NCBI RefSeq assembly: GCF_011764425.1
Contig: NZ_BLPF01000001.1
Location: forward strand, 4,269,001 to 4,333,000
Direction of reading: 5' to 3'
Source: Phytohabitans houttuyneae
GTDB taxonomy: Bacteria; Actinomycetota; Actinomycetes; Mycobacteriales; Micromonosporaceae
DNA length: 64,000 bases
The notes beneath the pieces are model-generated. The model searched no databases. It was not told the origin of the DNA and was given only the letters and a program-made list of their open reading frames with translations. This document shows positions 2,718 through 10,861 of this stretch, piece after piece. A program made the translations under genes and the position numbers. Every line of letters begins with the position of its first letter. The stretch's first letter is position 1.

Positions 2718-3479
2718 GTGTCTCACGATCACGAAACCGGCCCGGGTGGCTTGCCACCCGGGCCGCTGTCTGCCCCGGCCCGTGACCTCTTCGGCGACCG
2801 GCTCGACGTCGCTGTCGCCTACGCGGAGCTGCTCGCGACCGAAGGGGTCGTCCGCGGCCTCATCGGCCCGCGGGAAGCTCCCCGCATATGGGATCGCCAC
2901 CTGCTCAACTGCGCCGCGGTAGCCGAGCTGATCCCGAAGGGGGCTTCTGTCGTAGACGTGGGGTCCGGTGCCGGTTTGCCCGGTATCGTGCTTGCTGTGG
3001 CCCGGCCCGACCTTATGGTCACCCTGGTCGAGCCACTGGCACGACGGACCGCCTTCCTGGCGGAGGTGGTGACGGAGCTCGACCTCGACCGGACCGTGGA
3101 AGTGGTCCGGGCGCGGGCCGAGGAGCTCGCCGGGAGGAGTCCCGCCGACATCGTCACCGCTCGGGCGGTCGCGCCACTCGATCGACTCGCAGGTTGGTGT
3201 CTACCCCTCGCCGCCATCGGTGGGCGGCTGCTCGCGCTCAAGGGCGCCTCGGCCGCCGACGAGGTTGCGGAACACCGTGACGCGGTCGGTCGGCTGGGCG
3301 GTGCCACGCCGGTCGTACGGCGATGCGGGGTCGGTCTCGTCGACCCGCCGACGACCGTCGTGGAGATCGTCCGGGAGCGCGCCGTCGGGCCGGCACGGTC
3401 AAAGGCATCGCGGGGGGCGAGCCGCCGGTCTACATCGGACGGTGGCGCCGCGCGTGGGGGTAGAGCGCGGAGGGGTTAG
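2718..3479 (+). CDS. rsmG: 16S rRNA (guanine-N7)-methyltransferase
   Basis: SAM-dependent methyltransferase that makes m7G in the 530 loop of 16S rRNA (GidB/RsmG). The SAM-binding glycine loop is [16 protein letters not shown] (about residues 75-90), followed by [14 protein letters not shown] and the later [14 protein letters not shown] and [13 protein letters not shown] motifs. 253 residues, with a basic Ser/Arg/Gly-rich tail of about 30 residues that is not part of the fold. GTG start four bases after jag. Confidence 0.95.
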
Positions 3480-3761
3480 ATGGTCGGGCGGCCGAGGACT
3501 GTTGGTGTCGGATGGCCGCCGGACGCGGTGCCAATTCTTGGTGGCGTGCTGAGGCGTGTATGCGGCTTTCTCCTGTATGTCGTACCGCCGAGTGACTCCA
3601 GTCAGGCTCATGTGTCGGACACCAATGGCCTCACGCGCCCATCGGCCGTAGGCTGGCCGCGCGTCGATAGTGTGGAACCGGCGTCGGCTTCAGTGCGGCA
3701 GCATCCCCCGCTGCCCCTCGGGCCGGACGCGTCGCCGGGGCATCTGGGCGCGAGTGCTGTT
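3480..3761 (+). other. rsmG-parA spacer, probable parA promoter region
   Basis: Between the rsmG stop and the preferred parA start. The parA frame is open throughout (from ATG 3480), so an N-terminal extension cannot be excluded. The stretch around 3530-3640 is less GC-rich than its surroundings, more like a promoter region than like the flanking coding DNA. I see no clear -35/-10 pair. Confidence 0.4.
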
Positions 3762-5240
3762 ATGGCCGACCCATCCGAAGTGGACAGGGATGACACGGTG
3801 CAGGACAACGGTAGGTACGACGATTTGGGGTTGAGCCAACCCGGCGGCTACCGCGCGGGCGGTGCCGCCGTTTCACGTGGAACCGACTACGAAGGCTGGT
3901 CCGTCGGTCGGGGCGTTCCTGGGTACGGAGGTGCGCCAATGGCCGCACAGGGTGGGGTCGACCCACACGCCGTGCCACAGCCACGCGCCGGCAGCGGCTA
4001 CGACCGCACCGCACGCCACGACGGCGTGCCGGGTCCGGCCACCGGGAGGTCAGCAGTGCCAGAGCGTTCGCCTCAGCCGCCAGCGGGTTACCCCACCGGC
4101 GCGCCCGACGACCCGCATCACCGCCCGGCCCCCACGCCGCGCCCGCAGCCATCCGCGCCGTCCTCGGCACCACCGGCCCAATCCCCTGCCGGTCCGCCTC
4201 CCGCCCGCGCGACCGCGTCGGTCAAGCCGGTCCCGGCTGCGTCGCCGTCGCCTTCTCCGGCGCCTTCTCCAGCGCAACAGGCCGACACGCCCACGCCGCC
4301 GACCAGCACTTACGGGGATGAAGGAGGGGTTGACGCGTACGTTTCACGTGAAACCCCATCACGTGAAGAGGATGATCCACCGTTGGCTATGGAGGCAATG
4401 CGCGCAGTCCAGATCCTGAATCCGAGTGGCGAGGTCACCATGCCGCGGCCCGCTCACCCCAGGATCATGTGCGTGGCAAACCAGAAGGGCGGCGTCGGTA
4501 AGACCACGACCACCGTGAACCTGGCCGTGGCGCTAGCCCTCCACGGCAATCGGGTGCTCGTGGTCGACCTCGACCCGCAGGGCAACGCCTCCACGGGGCT
4601 CAACGTGCCGCACCACGCGGGCATCCCCGACGTGTACGACTGCTTGATCGACAACGTGCCGCTGGCCGACGTTGCTCAGGCGGTCGAAGGCATCCCCAAC
4701 CTCTGGTGCGTACCCGCGACGATCGACCTTGCCGGCGCCGAGATCGAGCTCGTCTCGGTCGTCGCCCGCGAGTCCCGGCTGTCCCGCGCGATCTCGGCGC
4801 ACCCGGAAAAGTTCGACTACGTCTTCATCGACTGCCCGCCTTCGCTGGGCCTGCTGACGGTCAACGCGTTGGTCGCCGCCCAAGAGGTGCTGATCCCGAT
4901 CCAGTGCGAGTACTACGCGCTTGAGGGCCTCAACCAGCTGATCAACAACATCAACCTCGTCAAGCAGCACCTGAACCCGACGCTCGACGTCTCGACGATC
5001 CTGCTGACCATGTACGACCGCCGCACCCGCCTGGCCGACGCCGTCGAGCAGGACGTGCGCAACCACTTCGGCGAGAAGGTGCTGCACGCGGTCATCCCGC
5101 GCAACGTCCGCGTGTCGGAGGCGCCCAGCTACGGCCAGTCGGTCATGACCTACGATCCCGGTTCGCGCGGTGCCACGAGCTACTTCGAGGCCGCTCAGGA
5201 GATCGCGGAGCGTGGGGTCAAACTGGGAGGAGCGGCGTGA
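3762..5240 (+). CDS. parA: chromosome partitioning ATPase ParA (Soj)
   Basis: Walker-type ATPase that moves ParB-parS complexes. The catalytic core begins about 230 residues after this start with the deviant Walker A ANQKGGVGKTTTTVNLAVAL, then DLDPQGNASTGL, FIDCPPSLGLLTVNAL and QCEYYALEGLNQL. The C-terminus has SEAPSYGQSVMTYDP. The first 230 residues are a low-complexity Pro/Ala/Ser/Gly-rich extension, longer than in Streptomyces ParA. ATG 3762 is a choice: GTG 3798 has the better ribosome binding site (AGGGA, 3786-3790) and ATG 3480 is also in frame. Two parS-like sites lie inside the extension and encode VSRGT and VSRET. Confidence 0.93.
   Translation: MADPSEVDRDDTVQDNGRYDDLGLSQPGGYRAGGAAVSRGTDYEGWSVGRGVPGYGGAPMAAQGGVDPHAVPQPRAGSGYDRTARHDGVPGPATGRSAVPERSPQPPAGYPTGAPDDPHHRPAPTPRPQPSAPSSAPPAQSPAGPPPARATASVKPVPAASPSPSPAPSPAQQADTPTPPTSTYGDEGGVDAYVSRETPSREEDDPPLAMEAMRAVQILNPSGEVTMPRPAHPRIMCVANQKGGVGKTTTTVNLAVALALHGNRVLVVDLDPQGNASTGLNVPHHAGIPDVYDCLIDNVPLADVAQAVEGIPNLWCVPATIDLAGAEIELVSVVARESRLSRAISAHPEKFDYVFIDCPPSLGLLTVNALVAAQEVLIPIQCEYYALEGLNQLINNINLVKQHLNPTLDVSTILLTMYDRRTRLADAVEQDVRNHFGEKVLHAVIPRNVRVSEAPSYGQSVMTYDPGSRGATSYFEAAQEIAERGVKLGGAA
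3870..3883 (+). promoter_or_regulatory. parS-like site inside parA (one mismatch)
   Basis: GTTTCACGTGGAAC, one base from the palindromic parS consensus GTTTCACGTGAAAC. It lies in the coding sequence of the ParA N-terminal extension and is read as Val-Ser-Arg-Gly-Thr. Likely a ParB-binding site. Confidence 0.75.
4341..4354 (+). promoter_or_regulatory. parS site inside parA (perfect)
   Basis: Perfect GTTTCACGTGAAAC palindrome inside parA, read as Val-Ser-Arg-Glu-Thr. A weaker half-site, TCACGTGAA, follows at 4359-4367. ParB would load here about 130 bases before the ParA ATPase core. Confidence 0.93.
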
Positions 5241-5274
5241 GGCAGCCGTTCGGCGATGATCGGGAGAGTGGGGC

Positions 5275-6319
5275 ATGAAGAACCGTCCGCGCGGCGGGCT
5301 CGGACGCGGCCTGGGGCCTTGATCCCCACCGCGCCCCCGCAGCCGTCGGGTGGCGAACCGGCGGCTGACGAGACCACGTCGCCACCCGACGTGGCTGAGG
5401 TGGCTGAGGTGGCTCCGGCCAGCGCCCCGCCGGCGCACGTGCCCCCCCTGAGCTCGCCGTCACTCCCGGCGCCACGAGCCACCTCGCCCCGGTGCCCGGC
5501 GCCCGCTTCGCCGAGATCCCGGTCGGCTCGATCGTGCCCAACCCGAAGCAGCCGCGGCACGTCTTCGACGAAGAGGCGATGGAGGAGCTCAAGACCTCGA
5601 TCCAGGAGGTGGGCCTCCTCCAGCCGATCGTGGTGCGCGAGCTCGACGGCGAGAAGTACGAACTCGTCATGGGCGAGCGCCGCTGGCGAGCCGCCCAGGC
5701 GACCGGCCGCGACACGATCCCGGCCATCGTCCGCGACACCCGCGACGACGCAATGCTCCGGGACGCGCTCCTGGAAAACATCCACCGCGCCAACCTGAAC
5801 CCGCTTGAAGAGGCGGCTGCGTACCAGCAGCTGCTGGAGGAGTTCGGGGCGACGCACGAGGAGCTGGCCAAGCGCATCGGCCGGAGCCGCCCGCAGATCT
5901 CGAACACCATCCGGCTCCTGAACCTGCCGGCACAGGTACAGCGGCGGGTGGCGGCAGGCGTGCTGTCCGCGGGCCACGCCCGGGCACTGCTCGGCCTCGA
6001 GGACGCCAGCGCCCAGGAAGACCTGGCTCTGCGCATCGTGGCCGAGGGCCTCTCGGTCCGCGCGACGGAGGAGCTCGTCGCCCTGGCCGTCGCCGAGGGC
6101 CCAGGACCCGAGGCGAAGCCGGCCAAGCGGCGGGTCAAGGCACACGCCCCCGCCCTGAGCGATCTGGCCGAACGCCTGTCCGACCGCTTCGACACCCGCG
6201 TGAAGGTCGACATCGGCCGCAGCAAGGGGAAGATCACGATCGAGTTCGCGACGGTCGACGACCTTGAGCGCATCGTCGGGATCATCGGCGTTGAGCGCAC
6301 GGAGCAGCCTCCGGAGTAG
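5275..6319 (+). CDS. parB: chromosome partitioning protein ParB, frame broken twice in this sequence
   Basis: CTP-dependent clamp that loads at parS. ATG 5275 reads [14 protein letters not shown], the standard ParB N-terminus, and then meets a stop. One base later in frame the expected [15 protein letters not shown] follows, and a second shift leads into [25 protein letters not shown]. Both breaks sit in runs: G4 at 5313-5316 where five G are needed, and C7 at 5442-5448 where eight are needed. With two bases restored the gene is one frame. Downstream are GERRWRAAQ (CTPase motif), [21 protein letters not shown] (ParB box), the helix-turn-helix [20 protein letters not shown], and a C-terminal dimerisation domain. 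An intact frame runs only from GTG 5492. Probable sequencing error. Confidence 0.9.
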
Positions 6320-6337
6320 GCCACTCCCCCGGCTTCT

Positions 6338-6373
6338 CGACGGCCGCGAACCCGGGCGGGTTCGCGGCCGTCG
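6338..6373 (+). terminator. terminator hairpin after parAB
   Basis: Perfect 16-bp inverted repeat (6338-6353 and 6358-6373) with a four-base loop GGGC, 19 bases after the parB stop. There is no U-run. It ends two bases before the perfect parS site at 6376. Confidence 0.8.
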
Positions 6374-6375
6374 CC

Positions 6376-6389
6376 GTTTCACGTGAAAC
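6376..6389 (+). promoter_or_regulatory. parS site (perfect)
   Basis: Perfect GTTTCACGTGAAAC palindrome just after the parAB terminator. Left edge of the gene-free island. Confidence 0.94.
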
Positions 6390-6541
6390 GCCGGCGGGCC
6401 GCGTGCGGCCGCGATCTTGCGGGGGTTGTGGCCGTCCTTGGGGCTGGGTCGGGCGCGGCGTGCGCCGGTGGCCGGAGCGGCCCTCTCGTCGGTGTCGGCG
6501 CGGTTCGTGGTTCGGGCCACCGGTGCTTTCGGGGAGGGACC

Positions 6542-6554
6542 GTTCCACGTGAAC
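6542..6554 (+). promoter_or_regulatory. degenerate parS-like site
   Basis: GTTCCACGTGAAC keeps the CACGTG core but has shortened arms. It lies 166 bases right of the perfect site at 6376. Binding by ParB is plausible but weaker. Confidence 0.5.
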
Positions 6555-7367
6555 ACTCGTCCCGGTCGGCCGGCGGCACGGAGCTCGTCGGAATGGCACT
6601 CGGGCGGGCATGGGTGCGGGCGACGGTTGGCGCCGCGCTTCGGTCTTGGCTTGGCTCGTTTCTGCGCCACCCGGAGTCTCGTGGCTGCGACCTTCCTATC
6701 GGGCGTGGTCTGACCCTCCGGTGTCGGCGTCTCTGCCCGCGCTTGTGAGTACCCCGCCGCCCGGCTGAGAAGCTCGGTGTGTGGCTGCGGACGGCTCGTC
6801 GGGACGACCAGTTGAACGCATCGGAACCACCTCGGCTCTCTTGGCCTGCGGCCGTTCGTCGGCAGGCGGTGGCCACGTTCTTCTGTGTGCCGGCAGCCTT
6901 CAGCTGTTGGTGACCCGGCCGGCAGGGTGGCCAGGTCTGGTGGCTACCGCCGCGACTCTCGGTCGCAGCAGGTCGCCAGCTTCAGCAAGCCCTACGGGTT
7001 CCCTGCGGTTGCTCAGTCGACCGAGCGACCGCGAGACCTCGCTGACGCGTTGCTACCGGCGCCCTGTGGACCGGATGGATCGTGGGACTCACGCTGCCGA
7101 CGGGGCGGATCGTCCAGGCCCAGTCTGCTGGGCCGCCCACCGAAAGGTCCGGTGCCGTGCTTGGGTTGCCGGCGTGCACGTGCTCGCAGTAGGACGGGGT
7201 GGGATGTTCGACGGCGCGGGCCACGCCGCTGGCCCCGACCAACTCGGCGGCGTCGCGGCTCGTGCCAAACCTTGCGCCGGTTGGCCCGACGCACTGCCGC
7301 AGTCTTTGTCACTGAGCCGCCTCAGTGTCGCCGTGCGTCGGAGCCTTCCAAGAACACGTGGCTTCCG

Positions 7368-7381
7368 GTTTCCCGTGAAAC
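7368..7381 (+). promoter_or_regulatory. parS-like site (one mismatch)
   Basis: GTTTCCCGTGAAAC, one base from consensus. It shares the 18 bases GTTTCCCGTGAAACATCG with the site at 8174. Confidence 0.75.
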
Positions 7382-8173
7382 ATCGGCGGCGCGGCGCCTG
7401 TGGCCGCCGCTGTCTGAGCTTCGCGTTTCCGTGGTTCCGGTTCAGGTGTGTGCACGGCCTGTCGGCTCCTCTTAGTCAGTCGTCTCGGCAAGTCCGTCGA
7501 CGGGAGCTTGATGTCTCGGCTCGTAACGGCGGTGTGGCCGCCGGCGGGGCCTCGCTGCGCGAGCGCCGCGGGGCGCATGTCCGAGCGGTGCGTTCTGCTC
7601 TGCGTTGACCTCAGCCCGACTGCCCCTGGTGATGCGGCCTCTCACGTAGGCCGCCGCACCGCACCCTGGAGAAAGATCAGTGCCCCAGGACGACGCCGGC
7701 AACCGTCCGGTCGGGAGGACGATCCACCGTCATGACGGCCGTTGGCAGATGGGTGGACGCAGTGGTCCAACGCCGACCGTGGTGCTGCAGCCCGTCCTCG
7801 TCGACGTTGTGGTCGTCCTCGGTTCGGCGGCCGCCGGCTCCGTGGCGGCGCCCGGTCACTCTCGGAGGAGCTTCGCCAGTTCCGAGCGCGCGACTGGCAA
7901 CCACCATCTGCATTGGAACCCCCGTCTGTAGGCCCGCCCCGCACTGTGGAGCGCCTTCGCTCCTGGGAGGTCTCGGGCGTCGCGGGACCTCGACGCAAAG
8001 AGGTCTCGGCCGGACAGGCGACCACCGATCGCCTCGCTCGTCGGCCGGCTCGAAGCGGCCGGGTCGCAGCGACCGCCACCGAGGGCGCGGGTCTGCCTGG
8101 CGGACGTTGCGACCGTCCGGCGGGACTGGGAGTCGGATAGTCGCGCAACGAGTCCAAGTAAGTGGATCACCGT

Positions 8174-8187
8174 GTTTCCCGTGAAAC
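8174..8187 (+). promoter_or_regulatory. parS-like site (one mismatch)
   Basis: GTTTCCCGTGAAAC with the full outer TG...CA flanks (8173-8188). Same variant as the site at 7368. Confidence 0.78.
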
Positions 8188-9371
8188 ATCGAGCAGTCGG
8201 CCGGCGAGTCCTAAAGCGACGAGGAGGATGCGTCCCCTCGCCGTAACTCCGGTCCGCCCGTGCCACCGGACAGCTGAGGCGTCGCCGCGTGGCCGACATC
8301 GCCCCGCCACTGAGGAATGCCCAGCGGAAGGCAGAACTGGCGGCCGCCCATGCGCATTGGACGGTGTCTCCCCATCCGGCATGCCGCCGAGATGATGGGA
8401 CGTTCCACAGCCGCCGAGCTGGGTGCGAAACCACGGCAGCGTGGCATCTCCCGTCCAGTGGCGCGCCCGGCATCCTCCGGGAGCCAGGCGACAGTGGCGT
8501 GCTCGGTAGACAGAGCGGCGTGTCACCCATGTGGGTTGCCGGCCGAAGAAGGGCCGGCGCTACTGCTTCCCCAAGACGCCTACTCAAGTGAGGCGACCTG
8601 TTGGGCATCGCCGTCTGCGTCCGCCGCCGCCCGGACCGAGCCGACCCAACGACCGAGTTGGGTCGCGGAGTTGAGGCCGACGATCCTGCGGCAGGCGATT
8701 GGCAACGGCCGGTGCTTCGGCCGCCGGTTCGACTAACAGGATCTGTCGAGAGTGTCACAGTCGACGATGAGATCGCCGCGGGCGCGCTTCGCCGCGACCC
8801 CACCCTCGGCCAGGAACGCTTCGCGCCCAAGCCGCCGGGGCGAAGCGGCCTGACCGAGTGGGAACCGGCGACGTCGGTACATCACCGAGCTATGCGCCGG
8901 GCCGGCTAGTCGCCTTGCTGCTCGCAGCCCACCACGACGAGGCAGCAGAAAGGGGGAAGCCGAGGAAGCAGCCAGAACCTTCAAACTCGAAGGTCGCCGC
9001 ACAGTCGACAGCGCCCCGTCACGGCCAGCCGCACGACAGCGAGTCGACGGATGCGGACGACAAGGGCGGCACAGCTACGACGGCAGCGCGGACGATCGCA
9101 GACCCGCGCGACACCACCGGCTCAGTCCGCTCGCCCAGACAATGTCCCGGCCAGGAGCCGATGGCCGTCTTAAGGCCGGCGACGATAGCCACAGCATCGT
9201 CCACTCACGAGCCGTGAACCTCGCGACGGGCATCTCGACCGCCTAGCCATCCCCGCCACGCTTCCCCCATCCGAGTGACGGCACGAGCCGCCGCCACCGC
9301 ACGAGAAGCAAGCGGGCCACCGCGCCCAACCACCGGCTCCACTGCTGGCGAGCCCTCAACGAGCGGTTCCT

Positions 9372-9385
9372 GTTTCACGGGAAAC
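9372..9385 (+). promoter_or_regulatory. parS-like site (one mismatch, opposite orientation)
   Basis: GTTTCACGGGAAAC, which is the reverse complement of the variant at 7368 and 8174. It lies 48 bases left of the perfect site at 9420. Confidence 0.76.
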
Positions 9386-9419
9386 GGCGAGGGTGACCAC
9401 CGCCACCCAGCAGGCCCCC

Positions 9420-9433
9420 GTTTCACGTGAAAC
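9420..9433 (+). promoter_or_regulatory. parS site (perfect)
   Basis: Perfect GTTTCACGTGAAAC palindrome at the right edge of the island, 25 bases before a perfect DnaA box. Confidence 0.94.
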
Positions 9434-9457
9434 GACGGCGCTCACAATCCACAGAGG

Positions 9458-9466
9458 TTATCCACA
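9458..9466 (+). promoter_or_regulatory. DnaA box
   Basis: Perfect TTATCCACA. Looser relatives flank it (ATCCACAG near 9448 and TGTGGACAG at 9514-9522). It lies upstream of the HIT-like gene and beside two parS sites. Too few boxes for an origin; a DnaA-binding or regulatory patch is possible. Confidence 0.55.
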
Positions 9467-9586
9467 GCTAGACCGGATTCGAGAGAAAGGGCCGGTCGGG
9501 GTGGGTGGTTGCCTGTGGACAGAGACGGTGGCGTCCGCCCGAAACGGGGAAGGACAGCGGTCCTGAACTCCGTTAGGGTCAGCCTC

Positions 9587-10861
9587 GTGCCAGACACAGC
9601 ATCCCCCGTTCCTGACTTCACGAAGTGGCCCTCCTTCCCTTTCGAGGGCGACCTGCGGGTCAAGCAACTCGACGCACCGGTGGCAAAAGAGCCGGCGCGT
9701 AAGGGTGAGGACGCAGCCGACTGCAGCGCGTGCAGCGCACCCGACGAGGCGTACATCTGGGTCAGCGAGCGATGGCGTGTGCGCGCCATGGACCGGCCCA
9801 CCGGACTGCCGATGGTGCTCATCCTGGAGTCCCGCTCGCACCTCGATCTGGGCGACCTGCCCAACCTGTTGGCGGCCGAGCTCGGCGTGATGACGGTGCG
9901 GCTGGAGCGCGCCGTCCGCTCGCTCGACGGCGTCGCGCGGGTCCACGTCAACCGGTGGGGTGACGGGTCGGCACATCTGCACATGTGGTTCCTGGCCCGG
10001 CCGTACGGGCGGCTGCAGCTGCGCGGCACCTTCCTGTCGCTGTGGGACGACATCCTTCCACCGATCCCCGAGTCGACTTGGCGGGAAAACCTGGCGCTTG
10101 TCGCGGCGTGGTTGGCGGAGTTCGGCGGCAGGCCGCTCGCCGAGCCGCCGCGGATCGAGTGGCAAGCGCCGTCGAGTCTGGTCCAGCAGGCAGAGGCGGA
10201 AGCAGCGAGTCTGGCGTTGCAGGCCGAGTCCGACGACACGTCCGTGGCGCTCATTGAGGCACCAGCCGACGAAGCCACCGACGACGCGGCGACCGACGAC
10301 GCGACCGACGGCCCGGCGGCCAACGGAGCGACGACGGCGGGCAACACCACAACAGACCGCCCAACGCCCGGCAGCACAACGACAGACGGCGCCACCGCCC
10401 ACACGGCGACTGCGCACACGCCAAAAGCAGGCGCGGCAACCACGCAGGCGGCACCTACGCAAGCGTCGACAGCAGGCGGGGCAGCAGCAGGCGGGGCAAC
10501 AACAACAGCATTCGGGACAACAGCACCTGCGCCAGCAGCGGACCGAGCGACCACAATCGCGACCCCTGCCAACCAAGCACCGGCAGAAAACACAACCGCC
10601 GGACAAGCCGCGGCCGGCCCGCCGACGGCGCACGCACAAGGCGCGACAGCACACGCGGCACGAGCGGAAGAACGAAAAACCGCCATCCCCAGCCAGGCGA
10701 GCACCGCCACCCAAACTGCACCAGGAGCGGACGACGCCGAAGCCGCCACCGTCGACCTGGCTCGCCAAAACCCGGCCGCGCCCACTGTGCCAGCCGCCAG
10801 ATCAGGCGACCAGACCACCGCCCAAGGCAGCAAGCCCGAACACCAAGGCGCGCCAACCTGA
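9587..10861 (+). CDS. HIT-like protein with long low-complexity tail
   Basis: The first 220 residues from GTG 9587 (PDTASPVPDFTKWPSFPFEG) form a conserved-looking domain with two Cys in DCSACSA, GLPMVLILESRSHLDLGDLP, and GDGSAHLHMWFLARP, which resembles the HxHxH-type motif of HIT-superfamily nucleotide hydrolases or transferases, here reduced to HLH. The frame is open from 9509. The last 200 residues are almost only Ala, Thr, Asp, Pro and Gln, in a strand that is very poor in T (10561-10620 has 17 A and 1 T). Function is not established; a nucleotide-binding role is inferred from the motif alone. Confidence 0.75.
   Translation: MPDTASPVPDFTKWPSFPFEGDLRVKQLDAPVAKEPARKGEDAADCSACSAPDEAYIWVSERWRVRAMDRPTGLPMVLILESRSHLDLGDLPNLLAAELGVMTVRLERAVRSLDGVARVHVNRWGDGSAHLHMWFLARPYGRLQLRGTFLSLWDDILPPIPESTWRENLALVAAWLAEFGGRPLAEPPRIEWQAPSSLVQQAEAEAASLALQAESDDTSVALIEAPADEATDDAATDDATDGPAANGATTAGNTTTDRPTPGSTTTDGATAHTATAHTPKAGAATTQAAPTQASTAGGAAAGGATTTAFGTTAPAPAADRATTIATPANQAPAENTTAGQAAAGPPTAHAQGATAHAARAEERKTAIPSQASTATQTAPGADDAEAATVDLARQNPAAPTVPAARSGDQTTAQGSKPEHQGAPT

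Follow-up and report, generated by a model that had tools for sequence, protein, structure and literature searches.

The window analysed here is a 64,000-nucleotide stretch of Phytohabitans houttuyneae DNA (contig NZ_BLPF01000001.1), and our subject within it is an interval with no recognisable gene (6320-9586; hereafter, the island) that carries parS partition sites and directly follows the partition genes parA and parB. The host, a member of the Micromonosporaceae, has a genome of 11.3 Mb in five contigs. Gene order around the island is rpmH, rnpA, yidD, yidC, jag and rsmG (names given by eye), followed by parA, parB, the island itself, a gene at 9587-10861 and, on the opposite strand, ddl. 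The genes dnaN and dnaA, both confirmed by Pfam, lie just upstream of the window start, and the interval separating the two contains four DnaA 8-mers, ~2.7-2.4 kb before that start, which places the island some 9-12 kb from oriC.

The parA gene (3480-5240, forward strand) encodes a ParA-family ATPase (Pfam AAA_31, 1e-59); its coding profile is weak in the 5' part, and two parS sites lie inside it. The parB gene (5275-6319, forward strand) was identified by Pfam matches to ParB_N, HTH_ParB and ParB_C. Alignment with four congeners shows that its reading frame is interrupted at two places, near 5315 and 5442, by the loss of a single base, with the domains intact from 5492 onwards. The two losses (5275-5492) are probably assembly indels. 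The translated product contains the GERR motif of ParB, which is linked to CTP. The parS sites are hence adjoined, as in other ParABS partition systems, by a ParA-type ATPase and a ParB with N-terminal, helix-turn-helix and dimerisation domains.

parS sites and coding content of the island

Searches for parS were performed with a 16-mer allowing up to three mismatches in the window and with a 14-mer allowing up to one mismatch genome-wide. The 16-mer returned seven matches in the 64 kb, all of them within 3869-9434, and none in 100 shuffled sequences, whereas the 14-mer identified eight sites in the whole genome, seven of which fall between parA and the end of the island. The sites are thus clustered near oriC beyond chance, as in ParABS systems. 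The two sites that the first-pass annotation had placed inside parA are both there: a variant with one mismatch, GTTTCACGTGGAAC, at 3870-3883, and a perfect site at 4341-4354. The former has a counterpart in all five relatives of the genus (the same variant in L036-L038, a perfect site in L039-L040), and the latter is perfect in all five.

Within the island, five of the six sites originally proposed were recovered. A perfect site at 6376-6389 marks the parB end, and about 50-60 bp around it align in L036 and L037. Two copies of the variant GTTTCCCGTGAAAC, each with one mismatch and identical to one another over 18 nt, occupy 7368-7381 and 8174-8187; a further one-mismatch variant, GTTTCACGGGAAAC, is located at 9372-9385; and a perfect terminal site at 9420-9433 lies inside the conserved last ~170 bp. 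The copy of GTTTCCCGTGAAAC at 8174 is preserved in L036, L037 and L038 within otherwise unalignable DNA, and the same three loci retain GTTTCACGGGAAAC; a second GTTTCCCGTGAAAC-type site, as at 7368, was found in none of them. Selection on these exact imperfect words is the simplest explanation for their retention.

The sixth proposed site (6542-6555) departs from parS at three of 14 positions and was rejected as a probable chance match. None of the three long-island congeners (L036-L038) has a match with up to two mismatches around that position, and the number of such matches expected by chance, estimated by hand, is ~0.1 per 3.3 kb. This rejection agrees with results from Corynebacterium glutamicum, where ParB was not recruited to degenerate sites that differ at three or more positions (PMC7083940, in excerpt). 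The symmetric layout that had been suggested for the sites did not hold up either, with P = 0.20 for six uniformly placed sites and P = 0.07 when the three conserved sites are held fixed. The eighth genomic site (G000:C1:4250597), a variant reading GTTTCACGTGCAAC, is located ~18 kb upstream of the window start, and this variant recurs in G000, G001, G003, G005, G205 and G008, each time some 20-44 kb before the parAB block; it could be a conserved outlying parS site.

The description of 6320-9586 as gene-free was borne out: the interval falls within the longest low-coding run of the 64-kb window (6274-9765), which spans 3.5 kb versus 1.1 kb for the next longest. Its mean coding score is -0.16, against 0.13 to 0.53 in the eight genes compared, and its four longest open reading frames (ORFs) have a GC content of ~0.7/0.7/0.7 at the three codon positions, against roughly 0.75/0.5/0.87 in four neighbouring genes. 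Six island ORFs queried against Pfam, and the island queried against Rfam, yielded no match up to E = 1. Open frames of up to 341 codons (stop to stop) are present, and an 83-aa ORF (7680-7931) passes the coding-like filter, yet is not conserved. Protein-level conservation of the long frames, which had been put forward as a way of overturning the prediction, was not detected beyond the ends conserved as DNA: of the 45 frames running for 50 aa or more from stop to stop, those overlying these ends were the only ones to match relatives, strongly beside the following gene and weakly (E 0.001-0.008) beside parB. Assembly errors are an unlikely cause of the absence of genes, since the score is independent of open frames and the picture is much the same in other genomes. 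Overall, there is little support for hidden genes or RNAs in the island. A perfect, GC-rich hairpin with 17-bp arms and a 2-bp loop (6338-6373, forward strand) follows parB and may act as a terminator.

Length and turnover of the spacer in the Micromonosporaceae

The comparison among relatives that the first-pass annotation had called for encompassed 145 Micromonosporaceae loci, after removal of four duplicates and of 13 loci without a located next gene (ten with only 0.7-5.1 kb downstream of parB, and L096, L223 and L224 with ~10 kb). Locus L071, deposited as Micromonospora sp. CPCC 205371, is a duplicate of L040, from the genus of the window. Given that 79 of the 145 loci belong to Micromonospora, numbers by group (29 groups, assigned by hand) provide the fairer measure. 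The gene at 9587-10861 recurs after parB in these 145 loci (tblastn), and the spacer separating the two contains parS in 143 of them. The presence of parS and a low coding content are therefore kept across the family, whereas length is not: the spacer ranges from 222 to 8,413 bp (median 1,596), a 38-fold range, reaching at least 1 kb in 113 loci, at least 3 kb in 25 and 6.9-8.4 kb in the six Catellatospora loci. Coding-like ORFs cover 8.7% of the 302 kb of spacer DNA, versus 3.8% in a reversed control, and the number of parS sites correlates with spacer length (r = 0.75 over the 145 loci, uncorrected for kinship).

In a hand-counted tally of 13 genomes, comprising that of the window and 12 relatives of our choosing, each genome presents 5-14 parS sites (up to one mismatch), and 93 of the 114 sites are confined to one block, never longer than 11 kb, that runs from parA to the gene following the island. 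Across 39 loci from other actinobacterial families, only ten of 118 parS sites, all with one mismatch, were located downstream of parB (hand count). Genome G031 (group g27) harbours 48 parS-like sites at the same threshold, 12 of them in the spacer, against 2-16 in those other genomes of the same search that had any.

The DNA between the island sites (6390-9371) is elastic, strongly diverged and low in coding signal. In a survey of close pairs, leaving out those with spacers under 800 bp, the median alignable fraction of the spacer fell with the identity of the gene DNA on its flanks, from 92% (2 pairs, flank identity 97-100%) to 62% (20 pairs, 95-97%) and 27% (33 pairs, 93-95%). We globally aligned 23 close pairs of our choosing, using nine of them to assess site conservation and four with flank controls. 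In the four controlled pairs, the spacers differ by 22.0, 33.0, 28.5 and 38.5%, against 7.9, 10.3, 9.0 and 11.5% at fourfold sites (3,271-4,671) and 7.0, 5.0, 4.2 and 5.4% in neighbouring intergenic DNA (10-13 stretches pooled), the pooled intergenic values being lowered by probable missed genes, since the control stretches come from our simple gene caller and several long ones are only ~2% different. Global alignments of unalignable spacers (p ~0.5) amount to noise, and misaligned parts raise p in closer pairs too; restricted to the parts aligned by blastn, the two closest pairs show 76-83% identity, against 97% in the flanks. Island K ranges from 0.26 to 0.74 in the 15 of 23 aligned pairs whose fourfold K is 0.08-0.18, the top two values (0.71 and 0.74) stemming from largely unalignable pairs, and 15-125 indel events were inferred per pair.

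Against this background, 30 of 32 parS sites in the nine close pairs aligned to a site, and all 30 are identical to the letter, some of the 32 being terminal sites inside the conserved block. Mismatches and gaps amount to 4.5% within the 14-mer, 16-22% in the few adjacent bases and 23-32% farther out. The parS sites are thus under selection within a diverged background, as in ParABS systems. In the genus of the window, the long spacers are unalignable except for ~50-60 bp after parB (L036, L037), ~30-45 bp around one middle site and the last ~172 bp. Taken together, a family-wide, mostly non-coding and rapidly changing spacer with fixed parS words constitutes a new and firm finding, and the divergence of the filler goes beyond what had been noted previously for this locus.

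The spacer also presents a recurrent compositional gradient. In the 113 spacers of at least 1 kb, AT skew is -0.26 in the first tenth after parB and drifts to approximately zero or slightly A-rich, the slope being positive in 94 of the 113, and GC content drops to ~0.65 in the last fifth. The window follows the same course, shifting from strongly T-rich to A-rich between 6400 and 9600. Polarised spacer substitutions (153 + 80 changes) revealed no clear strand bias, with C>T and G>A counts of 31 and 19 in the first half and of 15 and 15 in the second. Tandem repeats of 56 bp were observed in the spacers of two loci from different genera, L054 (spacer positions 1932-2562) and L055 (5050-5254).

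DnaA boxes at the terminal parS

The last segment of the island (9415-9586), comprising the terminal parS, DnaA boxes and a promoter-like end, is 91-94% identical in the three long-island congeners. On the forward strand, it contains a near DnaA box, CAATCCACA, at 9445-9453 (identified by eye, with the same words in the congener block), and a DnaA box, TTATCCACA, at 9458-9466, found at the same place in L036-L040. A box with one mismatch, CTGTCCACA, lies on the reverse strand at 9514-9522 (by eye; the exact 8-mer occurs nearby in L039 and L040). A putative -10 element, TTAGGGTC (9573-9580, forward strand), immediately precedes the GTG start and would be of the leaderless type.

The clustering of DnaA boxes at this end extends to the family. 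Using TTRTCCAC as the box and the 250 bp that immediately precede the next gene as the zone, we identified 270 boxes, spread over 124 of the 145 loci, where 20 mononucleotide shuffles gave 0.9 on average. The remaining 266 kb of spacer contain only 50 boxes. Recurring 9-mers in the same zone include AGGGTCAGC (107 loci) and CCCTAACCG (78 loci), and the block frequently finishes with TTAGGGTCAGC beside the GTG start. The boxes point inwards around the terminal parS, those on the left being in forward orientation and, for the most part, within one base of -32 or -19, and those on the right reversed, mostly at +38 and often at +74. Inward boxes on both sides were found in 96 of the 145 loci and in 11 of the 29 groups, and at least one side carries a box of the expected orientation in 126 loci and 22 groups. 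Non-terminal island sites present the two-sided arrangement in one of 296 cases and boxes on one or both sides in eight, and the corresponding figures for parS sites outside the family are none and ten of 117. The existence of this DnaA-parS end element, also an addition to the initial description of the locus, is firm and new.

The gene that forms the right border of the island (9587-10861, forward strand) looks HIT-like by eye only, and sequence searches against Pfam, NCBIfam and PDB returned no match for it. Its second half is A-rich and of low complexity (sequence inspected partly by eye).

A probable centromere in unusual form

The system described here is of a known kind, ParABS, in an unusual form. 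We consider it likely that this interval serves the species as its main chromosomal centromere, with a ParABS parS cluster distributed over elastic, sequence-indifferent DNA and ending in a conserved DnaA-parS element. ParB-CTP clamps load at parS and then slide. In this locus, ParB-CTP dimers would load at the two parS sites of parA, at the one immediately behind parB and at those inside and closing the island. From there, ParB would slide along and bridge the intervening gene-free DNA, so that ParA and SMC would act on one block of ~6 kb. The gene-free stretch may offer less obstruction, with several loading sites feeding one complex, an effect of spacer length that we treat as optional because the spacer shrinks to a few hundred bases in relatives. 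Selection would maintain the parS 14-mers and the two island ends, and the filler would grow, shrink and diverge fast because it is nearly free in sequence and length. At the last parS, upstream of the conserved gene, DnaA and ParB may meet, and their meeting could couple the state of replication to segregation or to transcription of the next gene.

Several observations weigh against this interpretation. Spacers of at most 604 bp occur in 21 of the 145 loci, so that length is not conserved, and two of these belong to the genus of the window, in which two of six members have spacers of just 257 and 303 bp, yet with parS and DnaA boxes. A long gene-free platform is therefore not required, which weakens the proposal of a platform devoted to ParB spreading. 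The spacers of L216 and L222 lack parS at up to one mismatch, and the ~10 kb downstream of parB in L096, L223 and L224 contain no recognisable next gene. At least one coding-like ORF is present in 35 of the 145 spacers, including that of the window, and a few, such as those of L221, L065 and L217, are largely covered by such ORFs. Fast turnover is not unique to the island, given that single intergenic stretches in two control pairs diverged by 0.40 and 0.455, with large length differences. Finally, the terminal parS lacks a box of the expected orientation both to its left and to its right in 19 of the 145 loci, and none of the six loci of the window's genus has the two-sided arrangement, their boxes being conserved but located to the right of parS.

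Among the alternative explanations, the one that fares best is that only parS and the terminal element are functional, the intervening DNA being idle and tolerated as ParB spreading or repression makes the place unfit for genes. The 38-fold length variation, the two congeners nearly devoid of filler and the restriction of sequence constraint to parS flanks and island ends are all as this explanation predicts. A raw difference about three times that at fourfold sites lies above plain neutrality, unless the fourfold sites are themselves constrained, and the joint increase of spacer length and site number and the common sign of the AT-skew slope in 94 of 113 loci also argue against it; we regard idle filler as a serious possibility, if not quite an even one. 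Alternatively, the terminal block could be just a DnaA-controlled promoter of the next gene, unrelated to segregation. Such promoters have a precedent in sda of Bacillus subtilis (PMC6399470, in excerpt), and the block does end at a recurring TTAGGGTCAGC-GTG start, but a promoter alone leaves unexplained the parS that sits among the boxes, at almost fixed distances, in several genera and the rarity of the two-sided arrangement elsewhere (1/296 and 0/117, as above), making this a tenable but tentative account.

A mutational or recombinational hotspot, in which ParB/SMC loading, fork conflicts or read-through of transcripts would make mutations and indels more frequent, appears rather unlikely. 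The high island K and numerous indels at low fourfold K, the T-rich skew that decays from the parB end and the 56-bp repeats in L054 and L055 are compatible with it, but the polarised substitutions show no clear strand bias and some other intergenic stretches diverge equally. We deem it unlikely, too, that the island is a bacterial regional centromere with a centromere paradox of its own, in which the targets of selection would be the parS words, a DnaA-parS gate at the end and the quantity of DNA free of genes, and the filler would be renewed abnormally fast. Lastly, a decayed or frameshifted gene region of this assembly, with parS there by accident of position, could account for the at least two single-base losses in parB, the long open frames and the coding-like 83-aa ORF, but it is very improbable in view of a frame-independent coding score that is low throughout, of frames that relatives do not conserve beyond the DNA-conserved ends and of spacers that are non-coding in most other genomes too.

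Centromeres in animals and plants likewise combine a conserved function with fast-changing DNA. The likeness to eukaryotic centromeres (PMC7482064, PMC7644871, both in excerpt) is one of behaviour only, with no homology, and differs in that short parS words are here strictly kept. Among bacteria, the system shares with the ParABS loci of Streptomyces and Corynebacterium a canonical ParA and ParB, the same parS core and proximity to oriC. Streptomyces chromosomes carry a mean of 22.8 parS sites, 45% of them in an origin island of ~50 kb (PMC8743542, in excerpt), and nine of the ten C. glutamicum sites are intergenic, within 35 kb (PMC7083940, in excerpt). Here, instead, most sites are gathered within a block of 11 kb or less, largely in a single non-coding spacer directly after parB, and the spacer DNA of long-island congeners is mutually unalignable. 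The 5-14 sites per genome likewise depart from the ~23, more widely spread sites of Streptomyces (PMC8743542), a contrast that upholds the initial view of a gene-poor parS array beside parAB as unusual.

The presence of DnaA boxes at the centromere recalls Caulobacter, in which DnaA binds parS and low DnaA levels move the centromere without replication (Mera et al. 2014, via PMC6399470, in excerpt). In that organism, from a different phylum, DnaA at parS acts on segregation (PMC6399470), whereas here the boxes go with one particular parS, located upstream of a gene and separate from a classical oriC; the likeness would be functional only, with DnaA presumed to act at the island. The rctA/parS2 locus of Vibrio cholerae also constitutes a centromere that binds a replication initiator and is thought to lack a functional protein, but the initiator is RctB instead of DnaA and the locus lies on a secondary chromosome (PMC6399470, in excerpt). 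No description of the island or of a DnaA-parS element in Micromonosporaceae appeared in titles or abstract openings among the matches listed, in a search mostly outside the subscription literature.

How ParB can spread on DNA that is densely occupied by genes and proteins has been described as a puzzle: bound proteins block ParB sliding and bypass requires recruitment in trans, while published ChIP-seq data show ParB occupancy little changed near genes and operons (PMC9242446, in excerpt). The Micromonosporaceae provide 145 natural loci with the same proteins and with spacers of 0.2-8.4 kb, in which the effects of gene-free length, site number and site spacing on ParB complexes can be tested. 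In addition, they make available an actinobacterial DnaA-parS element with which to test the link between replication and segregation.

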